The translations under genes and the position numbers were made by a program. Under the pieces are notes generated by a model. It was not told the origin of the DNA. It saw only the letters and a program-made list of their open reading frames with translations, and did no database searches. From the NCBI RefSeq assembly GCF_018861125.1, contig NZ_JAHKQN010000018.1, positions 1 through 64,000 of the forward strand: a DNA stretch of 64,000 bases, given 5' to 3'. Every line of letters begins with the position of its first letter. Within the stretch, counting starts at the first letter, position 1. Of the stretch, positions 80-9,432 are shown one piece after another. This DNA is from Cellulophaga baltica (GTDB lineage Bacteria; Bacteroidota; Bacteroidia; Flavobacteriales; Flavobacteriaceae).

Positions 80-148
80 AGTAACCTTAATTCTCTCTTT
101 TATTCTTTCTGATTTATAACTAAATTTAATAGAAATCAAACTTAAGAT

Positions 149-270
149 GTGTATAATTCATTGCTAATACTCGCCTACTTACGAAAATCCTCGCGAATTT
201 TCTATTCGGTTTGTATTTGCTAAATTAGTTGCTGAAACACGCAACGAAATCATACACAAAAACGTTAGCA
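149..270 (+). repeat. Structured intergenic repeat, attC-like (copy 0)
   Basis: Imperfect inverted outer arms GTGTATAATTCATTG (149-163) and CAACGAAATCATACAC (242-257) pair with few mismatches. They enclose a hairpin GAAAAT (183-188) and ATTTTC (197-202), and the element ends in AACGTTAGCA. Its internal sequence differs from copies 1, 3 and 4 downstream, so it is a different subtype with the same architecture. The IS3 element inserted 7 bp after its end. The attC comparison is inference. Confidence 0.5.
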
Positions 271-293
271 TTAATTTTGACCCGTCCTGAAAT

Positions 294-689
294 ATGTATA
301 CACAACACTTCAAGTATATGTATAAAAATGATGGATATGTAAAACGCTATAGCGAGAGTTTTAAACTCAAAGTTTTAGCAGAACTTACTAAAGGAAACTT
401 TTCTAAAAGACAAATAGCCTTAACTTACGGAATACAATCCAGTACTATAAACGTATGGATCAAAAAATATGATCGTAAAGATTTAATGAACACCCGTGTA
501 ACCGTGCAAACAGACGATGAACTATCCCGTATCAAAGCCCTGCAAAAAGAGCTAAAGCAACTTAAGGACCTTCTTATTAAAAAAGACTTGGACAAACTGG
601 TGACCGATAGCTATCTCGAGGTAGCTGCAGAGAACTTAGGTTATAGAGATGTTGATGAATTAAAAAAAAACTTAAACATAAAGCCTTAA
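294..689 (+). CDS. IS3-family transposase orfA (DNA-binding subunit)
   Basis: The 131-residue protein has an N-terminal helix-turn-helix of the IS3/IS911 OrfA type (residues about 18-60, with ALTYGIQSSTINVWIKKYD) followed by a leucine-rich helical segment (about 75-100) that would mediate oligomerisation. The annotated ATG lies inside the left terminal repeat, so translation may start at the Met at residue 9. The stop overlaps the ATG of orfB by one base (TAATG at 686-690), placing orfB in the -1 frame, the arrangement from which IS3 elements make an OrfAB fusion by frameshifting. orfA itself looks intact. Confidence 0.85.
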   Translation: MYTQHFKYMYKNDGYVKRYSESFKLKVLAELTKGNFSKRQIALTYGIQSSTINVWIKKYDRKDLMNTRVTVQTDDELSRIKALQKELKQLKDLLIKKDLDKLVTDSYLEVAAENLGYRDVDELKKNLNIKP

Positions 690-1546
690 TGAAAGTAGTT
701 CCTATTGATCGTAATAAAAGACTGTTTTCAGTTGGTACTATCTGCAATGCTTTTGATCTAAAAAGAGATGCTTATTACAAATACCAAAAAAGGTTTGTTA
801 TCAAAAAACAGATAGAACAAGATATAATTGAACTTGTTCGTGAAAGCAGGAGAACACTACCTAGAGAAGGCACCAGAAAGTTAATGAGGTCATTATAAAA
901 TGACTTTCACAAGTACAACCTTAAAGTAGGAAGAGACCAGTTGTTTCGAATCTTAAGAGAAAATAAGTTGCTCATAAGAAGAAAAAAATATTCTTCTAGG
1001 ACAACCAATTCATATCATCGGTTTTACAAGTATGGAAATAGTATAAAAGATCTTACTATTAATAAACCTAATCAAGTTTGGGCTTCCGATATTACCTATA
1101 TAAGAACCATTAAAGGATTCTGTTACCTAGCCTTGATTACAGATATGTACTCACGTAAAATCGTTGGATACGACCTCAGTGATAGCTTAGAACTAAAAGG
1201 TTGTGTCAGAGCTTTGAACAAAGCTATTTATAATGCTAAAAATATTAAAAAGCTTATTCATCATTCTGATAGAGGTATTCAATATTGCAGTAATATCTAT
1301 ACCCAAATACTAAAAAGAAAGAAAATTAAAATCAGTATGACAGAAGAAAATCATTGCTATGAAAATGCCCTAGCCGAAAGGGTCAACGGTATTCTAAAAG
1401 ATGAATTCTATCTTGATCAAACCTTTACCAGTGTGGTCCATGCTAAAAAAGCAACCAAAAATGCAATCAAATTATACAACTCTAAAAGATTACATTTATC
1501 TTTAGATTATAAAACACCAAATTACGTGCATCAAGATGCCGCTTAA
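689..1546 (+). pseudogene. IS3-family transposase orfB (DDE integrase), interrupted by an in-frame TAA
   Basis: One reading frame from 689 to 1546 encodes a complete OrfB except for a TAA at 896-898, after GTRKLMRSL and before NDFHKYNLKVGRDQLF. Both sides are in the same frame, so the lesion is a single nonsense change, not a frameshift. Downstream lies the rve/DDE catalytic core: QVWASDITYI (first Asp), HHSDRGIQY (second Asp) and ENALAERVNGILKDEF (Glu). The C-terminal YNSKRLHLSLDYKTP motif is also present. The element could move only by stop readthrough or with transposase supplied in trans. A sequencing error at one base is the alternative. Confidence 0.8.
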
Positions 1547-1607
1547 ATAATAATATTAATCTGTAGCCGTATTTTAGGACGTGACATTTAAAATAAACTC
1601 TACTAGA

Positions 1608-2084
1608 ATGAATCAGAAAGAAGAGACTTTCGAAATCTGGAAGGAAAATACATTTACAAGAATTGATAATTGGAAAAAATCTTTCGATGTGAATTATATG
1701 AAAATCAAATTAGATTATTCAATAAAATCTCTTTCTGAATTAGAAAAATATATCCTTTCAGAATATAGTGAAGCGGATTTAAAAAATAAAAAAAACAATC
1801 TTGCCCTAGATGGAATCGCATCTTATATTGGAGAAACTTTTATTGAATTAATACCTGAATCGAAATGGGGTATTTATGCTCGTGATAAATCGAATATTTA
1901 TTATAACCTCCCTTGTATTTTTACAAAATATAGTGGCTCTATTTCGGTGCATTTTTTATTAAGAGATATCTTAAGTAAAAGGAGAAGTGAAGTACTTGAA
2001 ACTCGTTTAAATAAAGTACTGAAAAATGATGAAAGATTTCGGCAACTTGTAATTAAAACTAATGCTAACAATACCCAAACGTAA
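1608..2084 (+). CDS. Hypothetical protein, first gene of cassette-like run
   Basis: The frame is open from 1581, but its first codons lie in the IS right end. The ATG at 1608 (MNQKEETFEIWKEN) is the sensible start and gives about 158 residues. The protein is charged and soluble, without signal peptide or membrane segment, and predicted mixed alpha/beta. I do not recognise the family. The gene begins about 38 bp after repeat copy 0 once the IS is removed and ends where repeat copy 1 begins. The IS has separated it from whatever lay upstream, so it may have lost or gained a promoter. Confidence 0.6.
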   Translation: MNQKEETFEIWKENTFTRIDNWKKSFDVNYMKIKLDYSIKSLSELEKYILSEYSEADLKNKKNNLALDGIASYIGETFIELIPESKWGIYARDKSNIYYNLPCIFTKYSGSISVHFLLRDILSKRRSEVLETRLNKVLKNDERFRQLVIKTNANNTQT

Positions 2085-2264
2085 TACAGACTATAGGGCA
2101 AAACGGAAAGGTCTTTGTATATTTATAATGTCGCTAAATCTGTTGGATTTAGCTTTGGATAAAACAAAAAACAAATCAAAACCAAAAGCTTTAGCTTAGT
2201 ACGCAGACGAAAACTACAAGTTTCCTTGCCTCCGCACTACGCTTAGCCCAACCGTTATGGTGCA
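2085..2264 (+). repeat. Structured intergenic repeat, attC-like (copy 1)
   Basis: This gene-free stretch follows the stop at 2084. It contains a hairpin GCTAAATC (2133-2140), loop TGTTG, GATTTAGC (2146-2153), then a conserved A-rich tract and the box AAAAGCTTTAGCTTAGTACG, and ends AACCGTTATGGTGC. The hairpin occupies the same place as those at 4002 and 5008 with compensating base changes in both arms. I could not find convincing inverted outer arms for this copy. The next gene starts about 25 bp further on. Confidence 0.55.
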
Positions 2265-2288
2265 TTAAAGAAAATTATTGTAAACTGA

Positions 2289-2777
2289 ATGAAATTATTT
2301 CCGAAAAGAAATTTTACAGCTGAATTAAGTGAAATTAATTCTATAGCAATGGGTGAATTAAAACGGAATACTGATATAACTGATTCCCTCATTTCTGACT
2401 GGACAAAAAAAGCATTTCGTGGACAAGTAAATGAAAACGGATTTAAAATAATATCATCTGAAATTGGTCACGGAGCAATTTGCGTGTTAAATGGAAAATT
2501 TGATGGAAAAACTGGCGAAATTGAAGTTCGAATTCATAAAGCATTTAAAATTATGTTTTCGATTTTGATGTTAATACCAATTATCGGATTCGTAATTATA
2601 GCATTGACAAACGGAATTAAAGAATCTTTTGGAATAATTATCCCTTTGATAGTGTTAATTGTATTTGTGAGATTTATATTTATGGAGTTGAGTTTTCGCT
2701 TTGTTTCTAAGACCGGACTGAATAAATTGACAAGAATTATAGGAATAACTAAACTTGAGAAAAAACAGAATAATTAA
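2289..2777 (+). CDS. Hypothetical membrane protein
   Basis: The 162-residue protein has a hydrophilic N-terminal half (1-95, beta-rich, with ISSEIGHGAICVLNGKFDG) and two closely spaced membrane segments at about 96-115 and 120-140, then a basic tail. There is no signal peptide. It is followed directly by the next gene (TAA then ATG, no gap), so the two are co-translated and probably function together; this is the only two-gene unit in the run. The family is not recognised. Confidence 0.6.
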   Translation: MKLFPKRNFTAELSEINSIAMGELKRNTDITDSLISDWTKKAFRGQVNENGFKIISSEIGHGAICVLNGKFDGKTGEIEVRIHKAFKIMFSILMLIPIIGFVIIALTNGIKESFGIIIPLIVLIVFVRFIFMELSFRFVSKTGLNKLTRIIGITKLEKKQNN

Positions 2778-3278
2778 ATGAGTTCAAAAGTACCAACAGT
2801 AAGACAGACTAATTGGATTTCTATAATTCCTCACCTAATAATTATGGGAGCTATAATTTTCATATGGTATTTGATAAATCCAGAAAAGGCATTTATTTAT
2901 GGCGCAATGACTTACTTGTTGATTTCATTCTCTTTAAGAAACTTAATTCCAAAAGACCATAGAAATGGAATAAAGAAAAACAATACTGAAAAATTTGAAG
3001 AAGCAATTCTTGACTTTCAAAAGAGTTATACTTTTTTCAAAAAATATGAATGGATTGACAAATACCGATTTATTACTTTATTAAGCTCTTCCAAAATGTC
3101 ATATCGAGAAATGGCTTTAGCGAATATAGGCTTTTGTTACTCTCAAATAGGGAATGGTATAAAATCAAAGGAATATTATCAAAGAACTTTGACAGAGTTT
3201 CCAGAAAGCGGACTTGCTAAAAGTGCTCTAAAAATGATGAGTGCAATGGAAAATAACGCATCACGATACGATATATAA
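2778..3278 (+). CDS. Membrane-anchored TPR-like hypothetical protein
   Basis: The 166-residue protein has two membrane segments near the N-terminus (about 17-33 and 38-54) and a cytosolic helical domain. That domain contains a TPR-like hairpin (ALANIGFCYSQIGNGIKSKEYYQRTLTEFP, about 113-142) and a preceding partial unit (FEEAILDFQKSYTFFKKY). It abuts the upstream membrane gene with no spacer. A protein-protein interaction role is likely for the TPR part; the biological role is unknown. Confidence 0.6.
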   Translation: MSSKVPTVRQTNWISIIPHLIIMGAIIFIWYLINPEKAFIYGAMTYLLISFSLRNLIPKDHRNGIKKNNTEKFEEAILDFQKSYTFFKKYEWIDKYRFITLLSSSKMSYREMALANIGFCYSQIGNGIKSKEYYQRTLTEFPESGLAKSALKMMSAMENNASRYDI

Positions 3279-3376
3279 CAAATTGGGCAATTAGTGTTTA
3301 ATCAAAAGATTGTTGTCTATTTGCAAAGTCGCCAAATATTTAACGTTTTGCGTCAGCCGAAAAAAAGACACTAAGT
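3279..3376 (+). repeat. Short or degenerate copy of the structured intergenic repeat (copy 2)
   Basis: The 105-bp gap between two small genes keeps the block AAGTCGCCAAAT found at the base of the hairpin in copies 3 and 4, but the second hairpin arm is missing. Outer arms TTAGTGT (3291-3297) and ACACTAA (3368-3374) are perfectly complementary. It looks like a shortened member of the family; the next ATG follows 10 bp later. Confidence 0.4.
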
Positions 3377-3383
3377 AATTATT

Positions 3384-3953
3384 ATGGGTTTTGGATTTAA
3401 CTTATTCTTCATTTTCATTCTTGTTCCATTAACGGGAATATTATTGATTATATGGCTGTTATCTCGAAAAATACTGATTGGAAAAATACTTGGAATTATT
3501 TGGCTCGGAATTTTCGGACTTGCATTCTTATCGGGAATTACTCAATGGTTGACAGCAAAAACTGTATTGGATAAAGAAGATTATTATGGAGAATATGTGA
3601 TTAACAGAGAGCTTTTTAAAGGCAAACAAACAGATTGGCAATATAACCACTTCCGATTTGAAATAATGGAAAATGACTCAATCTACTTTTATGAAACTGA
3701 CAATGAAACGATATTAAAAACATATAAAGGAAAAATAAGTACGACTGAACCATACAATTCGGCACGTTTGATTATTAATATGACACAACCAACTCACCAT
3801 ATTTTGACAAGTAATCCGACAACTTATAGAAGTGCTTGGAATTATTATTTAGTATTTAAATCACCGAAATTTCACAATATGTTTTTTAAGAAAGGTAAAT
3901 GGAAATCAACAGGCTCAAAAGAAAGCCGAACGCACAACAATGGCTATAATTAA
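3384..3953 (+). CDS. Hypothetical membrane protein
   Basis: The 189-residue protein has two N-terminal membrane segments (about 5-27 and 34-53) followed by a polar, probably beta-rich domain (about 65-175). The tail is basic (KGKWKSTGSKESRTHNNGYN). The family is not recognised. The last codons overlap the left arm of repeat copy 3, as happens when a cassette recombination site overlaps the 3' end of its gene. It is transcribed in the same direction as all genes of this run, and no promoter of the flavobacterial type is obvious in the short upstream gap. Confidence 0.6.
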   Translation: MGFGFNLFFIFILVPLTGILLIIWLLSRKILIGKILGIIWLGIFGLAFLSGITQWLTAKTVLDKEDYYGEYVINRELFKGKQTDWQYNHFRFEIMENDSIYFYETDNETILKTYKGKISTTEPYNSARLIINMTQPTHHILTSNPTTYRSAWNYYLVFKSPKFHNMFFKKGKWKSTGSKESRTHNNGYN

Positions 3954-4124
3954 TACGGGTTCTGTTGCTTAACCCAAAGTTTAGAGTTTTTAACTAAGTT
4001 CGCCAAATCTTTTGATTTGGCTTTAGAACAAAAAATATAAAACAAAATAAAAAGTTTTGGCTAATTGCTTAATCGGAAGTTAATCGCTTATTAATTCCCG
4101 TACTAACCATAGCCTAAACGTTAA
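3942..4124 (+). repeat. Structured intergenic repeat, attC-like (copy 3, most complete)
   Basis: The outer arms at 3942-3959 (starting GGCTAT, ending TACGGG) and 4097-4114 (starting CCCGTA, ending ATAGCC) pair over 18 bp with three mismatches, all of the A/G kind that still allow wobble. The centre holds the hairpin GCCAAATC (4002-4009), TTTT, GATTTGGC (4014-4021), then TTTAGAACA, an A-rich tract and AAAAGTTTTGGCTAATTGCT. The element ends CTAAACGTTAAC. The left arm lies within the end of the upstream gene. Confidence 0.6.
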
Positions 4125-4160
4125 CAAGCTAAAAAAAAGCTAGCATAACTCAAAGTTCTT

Positions 4161-4916
4161 ATGAAAAGGGCACTCATTCTAATATTATTTTTTTCTCTAT
4201 TAAGTGGAGGTGGCTATTTATTTTATTTGAATAAACGAATAGAAGGCGTTTGGGTACTTAACCATACAACTGACAACAATCAGACAGAATTTAAAAGTGA
4301 CGGACAAGGTGTGTGGGATATCCAAAACCAAAAAATTTATTATTATAATTTAAGTTCTTTACAAAATGTTCGAGGCAGTAATTATTTTGACTTTGGTATG
4401 AAGTTTAATTTAAAGTCAGAGGAAAATGTTAATGGTTTTGCTTTCAAGATTAATAAAGTGAATAGAGATAGCCTAGTCATAAACATAACCGGTTCGGTAC
4501 AACGTGAAATTGTACTAAAAAAAATCCCAGATACTTTAAAAAACAATTCTATTTGGAAAGAGAAGTTAACAGGAAAAGCTTTTGAATTTAATATCCCTAA
4601 TTATGTAGACTTCTCAGAATTTGCAAACATTCCTAAATCTAATGACACAATTTATTTTGATAGCCAATTCATTATGCATAGGAACCAAGTTGAGAACATT
4701 CCGAACTGGGAATCGCCAAGTTGGGGTTTAGCAAAAGTTGAAGGATTTGATTTAATGTTTGCGCATAACTGGCCAACATTGATTTTAACAGAGAATAACG
4801 ACGGTATAGCCTTTTATGGGTATAATATCAATGGAAAAATGTTCAAGTGTGAATTGAATGAAATTCAAATAAATCTTTCACAATTCAAAAATAAAATAAG
4901 GTTCAATCAAAACTAA
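4161..4916 (+). CDS. Hypothetical secreted or membrane-anchored protein
   Basis: The 251-residue protein starts with a hydrophobic signal/anchor (residues 1-22, MKRALILILFFSLLSGGGYL). It continues with a beta-rich domain that begins IEGVWVLNHTTDNNQTEFKSDGQGVWDI, the pattern of lipocalin-like lipoproteins in this phylum (W and V/L near the start, then alternating strands). I cannot assign a named family. It is the last gene of the cassette-like run, with repeats on both sides. Confidence 0.55.
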   Translation: MKRALILILFFSLLSGGGYLFYLNKRIEGVWVLNHTTDNNQTEFKSDGQGVWDIQNQKIYYYNLSSLQNVRGSNYFDFGMKFNLKSEENVNGFAFKINKVNRDSLVINITGSVQREIVLKKIPDTLKNNSIWKEKLTGKAFEFNIPNYVDFSEFANIPKSNDTIYFDSQFIMHRNQVENIPNWESPSWGLAKVEGFDLMFAHNWPTLILTENNDGIAFYGYNINGKMFKCELNEIQINLSQFKNKIRFNQN

Positions 4917-4935
4917 AACTCGGACGGAAAAGCCT

Positions 4936-5089
4936 ACACACAACACAACCTATAAACAATACGGGCTTCGGGCATAAACGAATTGGTTTGTATATTTTAC
5001 TAAGTCCGCGAAATCTTTTCATTTCGCTTTAGAACAGAAAAAAATAAAAAGTTTTAGCTAAGTGCTTAATCGAGATGTTGTGTGTAATG
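4936..5089 (+). repeat. Structured intergenic repeat, attC-like (copy 4)
   Basis: Outer arms ACACACAACA (4936-4945) and TGTTGTGTGT (5076-5085) are perfectly complementary. The central hairpin is GCGAAAT (5008-5014), CTTTTC, ATTTCGC (5021-5027), followed by TTTAGAACA, an A-rich tract and AAAAGTTTTAGCTAAGTGCT. The outer-arm sequence is entirely different from copy 3 while the inner part is nearly the same, so pairing rather than sequence is conserved. It lies downstream of the gene ending at 4916 and closes the cassette-like run; the following gene is on the opposite strand. Confidence 0.6.
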
Positions 5090-5131: not shown

Positions 5132-5620
5132 TTAGTTTTCGTCTTCAGGTTTAATTAATTCCGACTGATATTTTTCTAAAAACTTCTTCTGCCTCGCAAT
5201 CATTTGTTGCCTTAATTTATCAATGTCCATAAAGTCATTTCCTAAATTACTTCCAAAAAAATCATCATTAAAGAAATGTTTGCTAAAAAGTGAATCTTGA
5301 GAAAAAACATCTTCAAATCCTTGATTTTCAAATCCTGAATAGTTTGAGAAAAATCGTGATTTAAAAGATTGTATCAGACTATCTTTATCAGACAATGAGA
5401 GATTACCGAACTTATTGTTCGAAGACCAAGAATAAATACTGTCATATCTAATTAGGTTTCCGTTTTCATCAAATTCTTTATCAACTTTCCAAGTGCCTTT
5501 AGGCTCTTCAACTATATTGGTTTGATTTTCTTCTTTTTCAACTTTTTTAGTTTCATTTTCTTGCCCTTTACAGCCAACGCTCATCAAGCCAACTATAAAT
5601 AACAAAATATACTTTTTCAT
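5132..5620 (-). CDS. Hypothetical lipoprotein downstream of hsp20
   Basis: I chose the ATG at 5620 rather than the longer frame (5674) because it opens a lipoprotein signal peptide, MKKYILLFIVGLMSVGC, with a lipobox Cys at residue 17. The mature 145 residues are acidic and rich in Ser, Asp and Phe (FSQDSLFSKHFFNDDFFG) and end in a helical stretch KLRQQMIARQKKFLEKYQSEL. The family is not recognised. It follows the small heat-shock gene by 90 bp on the same strand, so a shared stress-responsive transcript is likely. Confidence 0.6.
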   Translation of the reverse strand: MKKYILLFIVGLMSVGCKGQENETKKVEKEENQTNIVEEPKGTWKVDKEFDENGNLIRYDSIYSWSSNNKFGNLSLSDKDSLIQSFKSRFFSNYSGFENQGFEDVFSQDSLFSKHFFNDDFFGSNLGNDFMDIDKLRQQMIARQKKFLEKYQSELIKPEDEN

Positions 5621-5710
5621 CACTTTATATTTTAAGTTCAACTTGTTATTAAGAAGATGCTGAAAAATCAGCATCCTCTTAATATTTTACTCTAAAATTT
5701 AGTGAAACAA

Positions 5711-6187
5711 TTATGAAATCTTAATGCTTCTGGCTGGTTTTTGTTTAGCCTCTTCTTTTTTTGGTAAAAGAATATTTAAAATACCATTTTCATAATTTGC
5801 ATTGATCTTTTCATCGTTTACACTTTCTGGTAAATTAAAGGTTCTTTTGAACGAAGAATAACCAAACTCTCTACGTGTATATTTTTCTTCTTTATGTTCA
5901 CTTTCTTCCTTTGTTTCTGTAGAAATAGATAATACTTGATTATCGAGGTCAATTTGAAAATCTGATTTCTTTAGACCTGGAACAGCCATTTCAACCATAA
6001 AAGCATCGGCAGTTTCTTTAATATTTACTTTGGGTAAAGTAATTCCAGTATTAAAATTAGAAGTGAATACTGATTGTAGATCTCTATTAAAGATATCATC
6101 CAACCAATTTGACAAATTTGGGAAGTTTTGATTTGAATTGCTGTTCGCTAAACTTCCATTTTTAGGAACACTAACTAAATTGCTCAT
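5711..6187 (-). CDS. Small heat-shock protein, Hsp20/alpha-crystallin family
   Basis: The protein is an ATP-independent holdase that binds unfolding cytoplasmic proteins. I place the start at 6187 (MSNLVSVPKNG); the longer frame from 6211 has no support. It has 158 residues: a short N-terminal arm with WLDDIFNRDLQ, the alpha-crystallin domain at about 45-145 (PKVNIKETADAFMVEMAVPGLKKSDF, YTRREFGYSSFKRTFNLPE, ENGILNILLPK) and a short tail whose RSIKIS end carries an I-x-I motif. A perfect 16-bp palindrome lies just upstream (6213-6228). Confidence 0.9.
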   Translation of the reverse strand: MSNLVSVPKNGSLANSNSNQNFPNLSNWLDDIFNRDLQSVFTSNFNTGITLPKVNIKETADAFMVEMAVPGLKKSDFQIDLDNQVLSISTETKEESEHKEEKYTRREFGYSSFKRTFNLPESVNDEKINANYENGILNILLPKKEEAKQKPARSIKIS

Positions 6188-6212
6188 AATTAAAAAATTT
6201 AAATTAAACATT

Positions 6213-8853: not shown

Positions 8854-9432
8854 ATGGACACAAATAATAAAAAAGTAAACACAGAACTCTTAAACGAAAT
8901 ACTAAGTAATGGAGAAGGAGATGTTTCTGACGTAGTAAGAATTTATGACCAATTAGAACCTGTAAGTTTAGGTTTTATGACCGGTCGTTGGAAAGGTTAT
9001 GAAATTAAAACAGGCCATTCTTTAGATGGTATGTTAGTACCTTCTGGCTGGTATGGAAAAGTATTTAAATCTCCCGAAGAAGTACATCCGTTAGTTTTCT
9101 TTGCTAAGAATAAAACTCAATTATATGCTGTAAACCCCAAGAAACTTTCTATGGATGTAAAAGTTCCTAGCAAAATTATAGGTGTTTTAATGTCATTAGC
9201 AAAGCCGTTTTTACAAACAAAAAAGTCTGGTGCTCGGCTAAGAATGATTGAGTATAGAGGAAAAGCAACAGCAACAATGCAATATGATGATAAACCTATT
9301 AATGATCATTTTATAAAAATTAATGAGAATACCGTATTGGGACTTATGGACAAAAAAGGAGATTCTCCAAATTTCCCTTATGCTTTTGTATTAGAAAGAG
9401 ATAATGAGTCTAACTACCAAATAAAATTCTAA
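8854..9432 (+). CDS. DUF4334 / GXWXG domain protein
   Basis: The start is set at ATG 8854 (MDTNNKKVNTELL); a GTG in the same frame at 8836 is possible. It has 192 residues. The GXWXG domain is at about 30-90 (LGFMTGRWKGYEI, LVPSGWYGKVFKS) and the DUF4334 domain follows (GARLRMIEYRGKATATMQYDDKPINDHF, LGLMDKKGD). The family is widespread and of unknown function, possibly a small-molecule binder. It is separated from the SDR gene by only 4 bp, so the two are translated together. Confidence 0.8.
   Translation: MDTNNKKVNTELLNEILSNGEGDVSDVVRIYDQLEPVSLGFMTGRWKGYEIKTGHSLDGMLVPSGWYGKVFKSPEEVHPLVFFAKNKTQLYAVNPKKLSMDVKVPSKIIGVLMSLAKPFLQTKKSGARLRMIEYRGKATATMQYDDKPINDHFIKINENTVLGLMDKKGDSPNFPYAFVLERDNESNYQIKF

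Follow-up and report, generated by a model that had tools for sequence, protein, structure and literature searches.

Integron-like gene cassettes with structured 3′ sites, and an associated tyrosine recombinase, in Cellulophaga baltica and other Flavobacteriaceae

The closest described relatives of the system considered here are the integrons (including superintegrons and the clusters of attC sites lacking an integrase, CALINs), which comprise the integrase IntI and the attI and attC sites. Passages of PMC3053210 state that IntI works on the bottom strand and give the core sequence as RYYYAAC...GTTRRRY, and passages of PMC9668308 place the IntI-specific extra domain around patch III. An IntegronFinder 2.0 survey gives Salinibacter as the one case of a complete integron in Bacteroidetes proper, and describes the missing integrons in some clades as intriguing (PMC9024848); passages of other papers count the phylum among integron hosts. 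The present study concerns a 64,000-nucleotide stretch, hereafter the window, which is the start of a contig (C5, NZ_JAHKQN010000018.1) of the 3.92-Mb draft genome of Cellulophaga baltica (GCF_018861125.1, 36 contigs). At positions 143-5080 of the window, five repeats of the + strand, one of 124 bp and four of a 190-bp type (two with deletions), are separated by genes of the same strand. A first-pass annotation of the window had recognised in this run the logic of gene cassettes with attC sites. In the open-licence literature (bioRxiv apart), no report was found of such flavobacterial arrays or of integrons with the recombinase described below.

It is very probable that the repeats and genes belong to a system that works like an integron, with gene cassettes, structured 3′ sites and, as the proposed enzyme, a tyrosine recombinase whose gene heads the arrays. 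Support at the level of sequence comes from the unit boundaries, the strand order, the mobility of whole units with exact ends, the position of the recombinase gene and its catalytic residues. Judged on these features, the cassette nature of the units appears nearly certain, and the array recombinase is likely to be the enzyme moving them. Because the integrase test (TIGR02249) fails, the system stands outside the IntI-defined family. We also lean towards a wider proposal, namely that Bacteroidota possess a second integron system. Its recombinase, devoid of the IntI insert and endowed with a HARP domain, would read folded single-stranded sites via a junction-binding domain and A-C/T-G mismatches; the system would form superintegrons of about 50 cassettes and would have spread across classes and onto plasmids.

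The following mechanism can be proposed. A cassette is made up of a gene (or none) and, on its 3′ side, a structured site. Once the cassette is excised as a circle, this site would fold as a long imperfect hairpin, the outer stem of which would be formed by AAC/GTT and a cassette-specific 7-bp arm. The recombinase gene lies just upstream of the arrays and on their strand, with a candidate attI-like site behind it. Integration would proceed by strand exchange next to GTT, between the attI-like site and the folded site of the incoming cassette, and excision by strand exchange between sites, as in integrons. Likeness to integrons lies in a recombinase gene with a candidate attI-like site and a one-strand array of mostly single-gene cassettes, in the position of the site at the gene 3′ end, in complementary core arms at both cassette ends, in repeated cassettes and in a predicted preference for folding of the bottom strand. 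In contrast with integrons, the array recombinase has no IntI-specific insert and its N-terminal domain is tentatively HARP-like, the array follows the recombinase gene and shares its strand, the site stems contain conserved A-C mismatches, and no IntI was found by our survey in the lineage.

Boundaries and mobility of the units

Used as a query against its own genome, the fourth repeat of the window (copy 3, the numbering starting from 0) gives 44 matches at E ≤10, of which 22, itself counted, are at E ≤1.3e-6 (best other match, 1.4e-71). With iterated profiles, the retrieved stretches of the genome yield 65 sites, some of which are partial. The repeats are therefore real and lie where the first-pass annotation had placed them, with the reservation that copy 0 represents a shorter second type and that copies 2 and 4 are internally deleted. 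The two types, A (~190 bp, copies 1-4) and B (~124 bp, copy 0), have homologous ends. Sites and genes are mostly on the same strand, most sites stand close behind a stop codon (exceptions exist), and mostly one or two open reading frames (ORFs) are found between sites. Many sites are close to contig ends, as expected because long similar repeats break an assembly.

Each unit starts with GTT followed by seven variable bases and ends with their reverse complement followed by AAC; the end motifs AACGTT and TGTTGTG, first attributed to the repeats, are really GTT and then a variable arm. Arms could be read for 38 consecutive pairs in the window's own genome, and in 32 of these they agree at 6-7 of 7 positions (1000 shuffles: mean 1.9, maximum 7), while the two arms of one and the same site match in 2 cases out of 55. 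In a relative assembled as a single contig (G031), two arrays comprise 44 and 54 sites, 98/98 on one strand, and 37/42 and 44/50 of their arm pairs match. When all retrieved loci are pooled, the arms agree in 244 of 303 pairs (shuffles: mean 10.6, maximum 20), as compared with 26 of 380 for the arms of a site with each other, and 160 distinct 7-mers occur among 396 arms; in these all-loci counts, as in the fold counts below, some sites are taken twice owing to overlapping loci, and pairs with unreadable arms are excluded. Since the arms match from site to site, a unit spans the GTT of one site to the GTT of the next. On sequence grounds, this pattern is the boundary signature of integron cassettes, as would be left by the insertion of circular cassettes, and it bears out the cassette logic first proposed for the window. 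Even without a site model, chains of at least three matching units, some links of which are of low complexity, follow the recombinase gene in 13 of 20 stretches. Nulls with direct and with reversed arms, the two used, give at most two, and the other-strand control is uninformative because an inverted pair reads alike on both strands.

Whole units are mobile. In G031, 27 of 91 cassettes fall into seven multi-copy families. The commonest, a 558-bp cassette without evident ORF, has 13 copies over both arrays (L121-L128), all of which start at C|GTT and stop before GTT, and the neighbours of which differ save in three tandem pairs. Homologous recombination between the long repeats, without a dedicated recombinase, could be imagined to shuffle cassettes in this way, the sites being 120-190 bp long and up to ~95% alike, and the 59 mismatched arm pairs among the 303 would fit. 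However, exchange within repeats would uncouple the two ends of a unit, whereas the arms of 244 pairs match; moreover, the arms are as diverse as noted above and the edges of moved units fall at GTT, so that we hold this explanation to be highly improbable. Cassettes common to different genomes were limited, in the retrieved loci, to four pairs, all from overlapping loci and hence uninformative.

Among 111 well-armed cassettes of the own genome and G031 (copies counted), 14 contain no ORF of 60 amino acids; of the 97 ORF-bearing ones, 95 have their longest ORF in the orientation of the cassette and 2 have it on the opposite strand. The 88 distinct cassette proteins, which include the insertion sequence transposase of cassette 1 of the window, belong to scattered families (taken from the first 25 of each result list). 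These include immunity proteins, two WapI-like and one Imm-NTF2-2 with an NTF2 fold, and, as defence proteins, a single HamB and a single PtuA.

Structure of the site

For 14 pairs of the type A inner stem, pairing is retained in 92.8% of 460 cells; 113 changes are two-sided and none is one-sided. The numbers of cells paired and of cells changed on both sides, as well as the covariation score, are above those of all 500 shuffles, and the structure beats every slid version of itself; the pairs were picked after the alignment had been seen. One G-U is found among the 13 pairs of type B, and some G-U pairs occur in the other helices given by RNAalifold for type A. RNA helices commonly show G-U steps. 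The near-absence of G-U from the site stems thus indicates selection on DNA.

The first-pass annotation had mentioned RNA terminators or structured 3′ UTRs as alternatives. Sites do lie mostly after stop codons and, of three window copies folded as single strands, one folds better than shuffles, the two others being no better. However, an Rfam scan gives no match except a tRNA, compensatory changes occur without G-U intermediates in the type A inner stem (one G-U in type B), an arm finds its partner at the other end of its unit rather than in its own site, and the units move. The repeats are therefore almost certainly not RNA elements. In the window, a pattern search for the central hairpin finds 13 occurrences against a shuffle mean of 7.7, 10 of 100 shuffles having as many, hence no clear excess.

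Conserved A-C mismatches are present between the stems, in 33/33, 27/33 and 33/33 sites of type A and in 17/17 and 17/17 of type B; on the opposite strand they read as T-G. When folded with its own arms, the site is predicted to be more stable as bottom strand in 232 of 238 sites, by 4.2 kcal/mol on average (composition shuffles: 68/100, 1.0 kcal/mol). These predicted folds suggest that the bottom strand would be the substrate of the recombinase. Whereas a folded attC bottom strand has two extrahelical bases, the site consensus combines 1x1 A-C mismatches with an asymmetric inner loop, and the L stem of type A has no conserved one-sided bulge. As already remarked in the first-pass annotation, the core differs from the classical one: GTTRRRY is found in 19 of 399 cases and RYYYAAC in 19 of 400. 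It should be noted that this comparison separates poorly, because 7 of 8 upstream first arms of canonical IntI loci also deviate from the core.

The array-associated recombinase

Eight Phage_integrase matches are found in the own genome. The two most IntI-like ones, on contigs C2 and C34, are each just upstream of cassettes and on the same strand; on C34, the contig ends after only a short run. The recombinase of this contig is an open frame of 371 amino acids, and the array recombinases retain the catalytic R, K, HxxR, H and Y. The C2 gene (L046:8657-9740, - strand) is interrupted near the N-terminus at a run of A. Thus, the lack of an integrase gene in the window, first noted as a caveat, is answered in part by a recombinase heading arrays on other contigs, which is not IntI by the curated model: nothing in the own genome exceeds the 265-bit cut-off of TIGR02249, two proteins scanned reaching 196.4 and 184.4 bits. 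The IntI-specific insert is absent from the six array-type recombinases displayed and present in the three IntI displayed (a seventh recombinase, rec_G328, is cut short over the region, and TIGR02249 columns ~180-240 are skipped). In a tree, 10 IntI group together in a single clade (100/99) that excludes the array recombinases, the label ARRAY being scattered; IntI and Xer join under the starred level, in a join flagged as long-branch (rec_G328 and IntI_L166 were dropped beforehand, and IntI_L159 is mis-extracted).

A perfect (7/7) arm pair opens ≤400 bp past the recombinase stop at 28 of 39 family loci with >1.2 kb downstream (nulls 3 and 4; the pair of G101 looks accidental), and at 23 of 44 recombinase loci of the named-genome set (nulls 4 and 2). 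In the pairs regarded as genuine, the first cassette starts 27-274 bp past the stop. By hand count, 16 of 27 stretches ahead of the first GTT end with TATAAACNA|GTT or TATAACNA|GTT, and several others are palindromes. From its position and sequence, the stretch between the recombinase stop and the first GTT is a candidate attI. In G108, 9/9 sites listed are downstream of the recombinase and on its strand; in G153, this is the case for 10/14, the other four forming a second cluster.

These data make it possible to consider whether the repeats are simply ordinary attC sites of an IntI integron, the intI gene of which was lost or missed, as in a CALIN. The arm logic is the same, arm pairs are also seen at canonical IntI loci of the phylum, and a true IntI was found in 84 of 296 phylum genomes, one of them in the window's class. 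However, none of the 84 is in the window's family, no own-genome protein reaches the IntI cut-off, and the recombinase at the head of the arrays lacks the IntI insert. Moreover, the arrays lie downstream of it on the same strand, whereas the pairs of the IntI loci are mostly upstream on the opposite strand (8/14, as against 3/14 downstream). A canonical integron is thus very unlikely.

The relation to Xer proteins deserves the same attention. The nearest solved relatives of the recombinase include archaeal Xer proteins (PDB 5hxy, 4a8e), and the NCBI name "site-specific tyrosine recombinase/integron integrase" carried by some plasmid members comes from NF040815, a general model for XerA. The C34 protein scores below the equivalog cut-offs of XerC (164.9 for 335 bits), XerD (174.2 for 329.6) and archaeal XerA (NF040815; 209.9 for 220, a second recombinase having 189.2), and it differs from Xer/XerA by an extra N-terminal domain and by its linkage to cassette arrays. 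In Xer/dif-type modules, genes between small dif-like sites are moved by XerCD, a scheme with which the short palindromes seen as some attI-like sites would agree. Nevertheless, dif modules are not known to have long, same-orientation sites with unit-specific arms, whereas the present sites are long, carry such arms and have a single orientation in the G031 arrays, which, together with a dedicated recombinase gene heading the arrays, makes such modules extremely unlikely here.

The N-terminal domain of the recombinase is predicted to contain five strands and two helices. The HARP domain (PF07443), known from SMARCAL1 and T4 UvsW, is described as five strands and two helices in passages of PMC4666394. 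Among 18 N-termini, one matches PF07443 with 25.4 bits (gathering score 25), one with 19.8 bits, and 16 have no match; a profile search of the domain in the PDB gave nothing useful. As the VIA-align rows cover residues 96-360, the basis of the assignment is the Pfam match together with the predicted secondary structure, and the domain can tentatively be called HARP-like. In contrast with known HARP domains, its fusion partner is a recombinase instead of a helicase motor. The I2 helix is part of the IntI insert. In VchIntIA, this helix acts in trans and contacts the DNA near the second extrahelical base, according to passages of PMC3053210. Because the insert is missing from the array recombinase, the enzyme should read its site differently, and we propose that the HARP-like domain might replace the insert in recognising folded DNA.

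Occurrence of the system and the array of the window

With one model, sites are found in 104 of 120 family genomes, at least two in 91. They occur in 82 of 85 genomes with the recombinase and in 22 of 35 without it (Fisher p 5e-6). At E 1e-60, recombinase homologues are present in 77 of 296 phylum genomes; named ones include Polaribacter, Algibacter, Flavobacterium, Gillisia and Algoriphagus, and a perfect first cassette is seen in four genomes beyond the window's class (G328, G174, G217, G164). Among phage records, 35 have a match, none covering 80% of the recombinase. A cassette system is thus present in most sampled genomes of a family, in a lineage in which no IntI was found. It would account for a large pool of exchangeable small genes, immunity and defence genes included, and would show that folded-site cassette recombination is possible without the IntI insert, so that the purpose of the insert becomes testable.

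The features of the window are as follows.

143..266, + strand: site of type B (attC-like, ~124 bp; copy 0), left AAC lost, GTT end at 264-266; profile match of 119.3 bits, nhmmer match at 149-266
264..2069, + strand: cassette 1, opening GTTAGCATTA and closing TAATGCTAAC, arms 7/7 by arm comparison
278..1586, + strand: insertion sequence within cassette 1, with terminal inverted repeats and a likely 3-bp target duplication TTT; Pfam rve and HTH_Tnp_1, ends read by eye
1608..2084, + strand: gene of cassette 1, no Pfam family (ORF list, Pfam)
2067..2256, + strand: site of type A, full length, ending GTT + ATGGTGC; 111 bits, alignment
2289..2777, + strand: cassette gene with hydrophobic stretches (by eye), homologue alone in a cassette in two relatives (ORF list, Pfam, homologue search)
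2778..3278, + strand: second ORF of unit 2, sub-cut-off TPR match (ORF list, Pfam)
~3265..3347, + strand: site of type A with internal deletion (copy 2), ending ATTTAACGTT; alignment to the full-length relative L041:675, nhmmer match at 3272-3361
3384..3953, + strand: cassette gene, hydrophobic stretches recognised by eye, no family above the cut-off (ORF list, Pfam)
3936..4122, + strand: site of type A, full length, overlapping the 3′ end of the gene 3384..3953; 135 bits, single-stranded DNA fold z -2.48
4161..4916, + strand: cassette gene, no Pfam family (ORF list, Pfam)
4942..5080, + strand: last site, of type A with internal deletion (copy 4), own arms TACACAC / GTGTGTA pairing; 71 bits, alignment

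The genes of the run are indeed on one strand and mostly unrecognised, as first described, none of the five cassette ORFs reaching a Pfam cut-off; the ORFs before 1608 are to be removed from the gene run, since they form the insertion sequence inside cassette 1. We take this element to be of the IS3 type; its second transposase frame is interrupted. Arms at 7/7 bound one of the four window units, cassette 1 (264...2067), which the insertion sequence splits. A further 7/7 pair, 4403...6207, bounds no unit. This run at the start of the window is the decayed end of a cassette array.

Fixed synteny, which the first-pass annotation regarded as an argument against cassettes, is not what is observed. 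A 7-kb array of the own genome is matched by 16 of 17 other genomes of the genus and, among the matches listed, nearly all fall on sites, not genes; the window genes occur singly in other genomes. Homologues of the gene 2289-2777 are alone in a cassette in G015 and G014, in the latter between two type A sites. Those of 2778-3278 are in G011, G017, G005, G004 and G014, and those of 3384-3953 in G003 and G006, with no cassette around them in the stretch examined. The idea that all such homologues in relatives stand as cassettes was not retained: 2 of 10 loci (L306, L320) have enclosing 7/7 arms with confirmed strand, in L273 the homologue lies between two profile sites with unreadable arms, and the 7 other loci checked give no convincing cassette.

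Several observations weigh against the existence of an integron-like system as proposed here. Three of the four window units have damaged arms, units 2 and 3 matching at 5/7 (hand count) and unit 4 at 0/7. The family recombinases of the own genome are on contigs C34 and C2, apart from the window contig; the C2 copy is not one open frame, and neither contig can be linked to the window array. Two of the five covariation measures of type A, the changed-pair and pair-type counts, do not beat the shuffles. At the level of genomes, sites occur without a recombinase at E 1e-50 in 22, and a recombinase occurs without sites in 3. No first cassette is detectable at 11/39 and 21/44 recombinase loci, and in G018, G076 and G125 a listed site is on the recombinase contig, but upstream and on the other strand. 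Of 18 N-termini, one exceeds the Pfam cut-off for HARP, and the protein of the own genome shows no HARP match. Finally, homologous recombination between sites would also be able to move genes.

Beyond the array, the repeat run of the window stops before an oppositely oriented ORF (5132-5674). It is followed by a gene at 5711-6211, on the other strand, which presumably encodes a small heat-shock protein.

Members of the recombinase family were also encountered on plasmids. On Acinetobacter plasmids, a truncated member, tpnF (222 amino acids), directly precedes tet(X3) (L270:2628-4649; L322:4028-6049), which is a lead on how tet(X3) left its source. The gap between tpnF and tet(X3) contains an attI-like palindrome ending GTTATGTGCC. 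An opening GTT is thus present together with this palindrome, but a closing arm was not found, and tet(X3) is not claimed as a cassette. On a Chryseobacterium plasmid (L271:7974-17014), a family recombinase is followed by three self-palindromic stretches opening GTTGGGAAAAATC, at 9122, 11217 and 13598, that is with a spacing of 2.1-2.4 kb; within this run, a group II intron maturase is encoded on the opposite strand. Lastly, a type B site is found on a plasmid of Flagellimonas marinaquae (L323:3908-4023), immediately after a gene of the dihydrofolate reductase family and close to erm(F).

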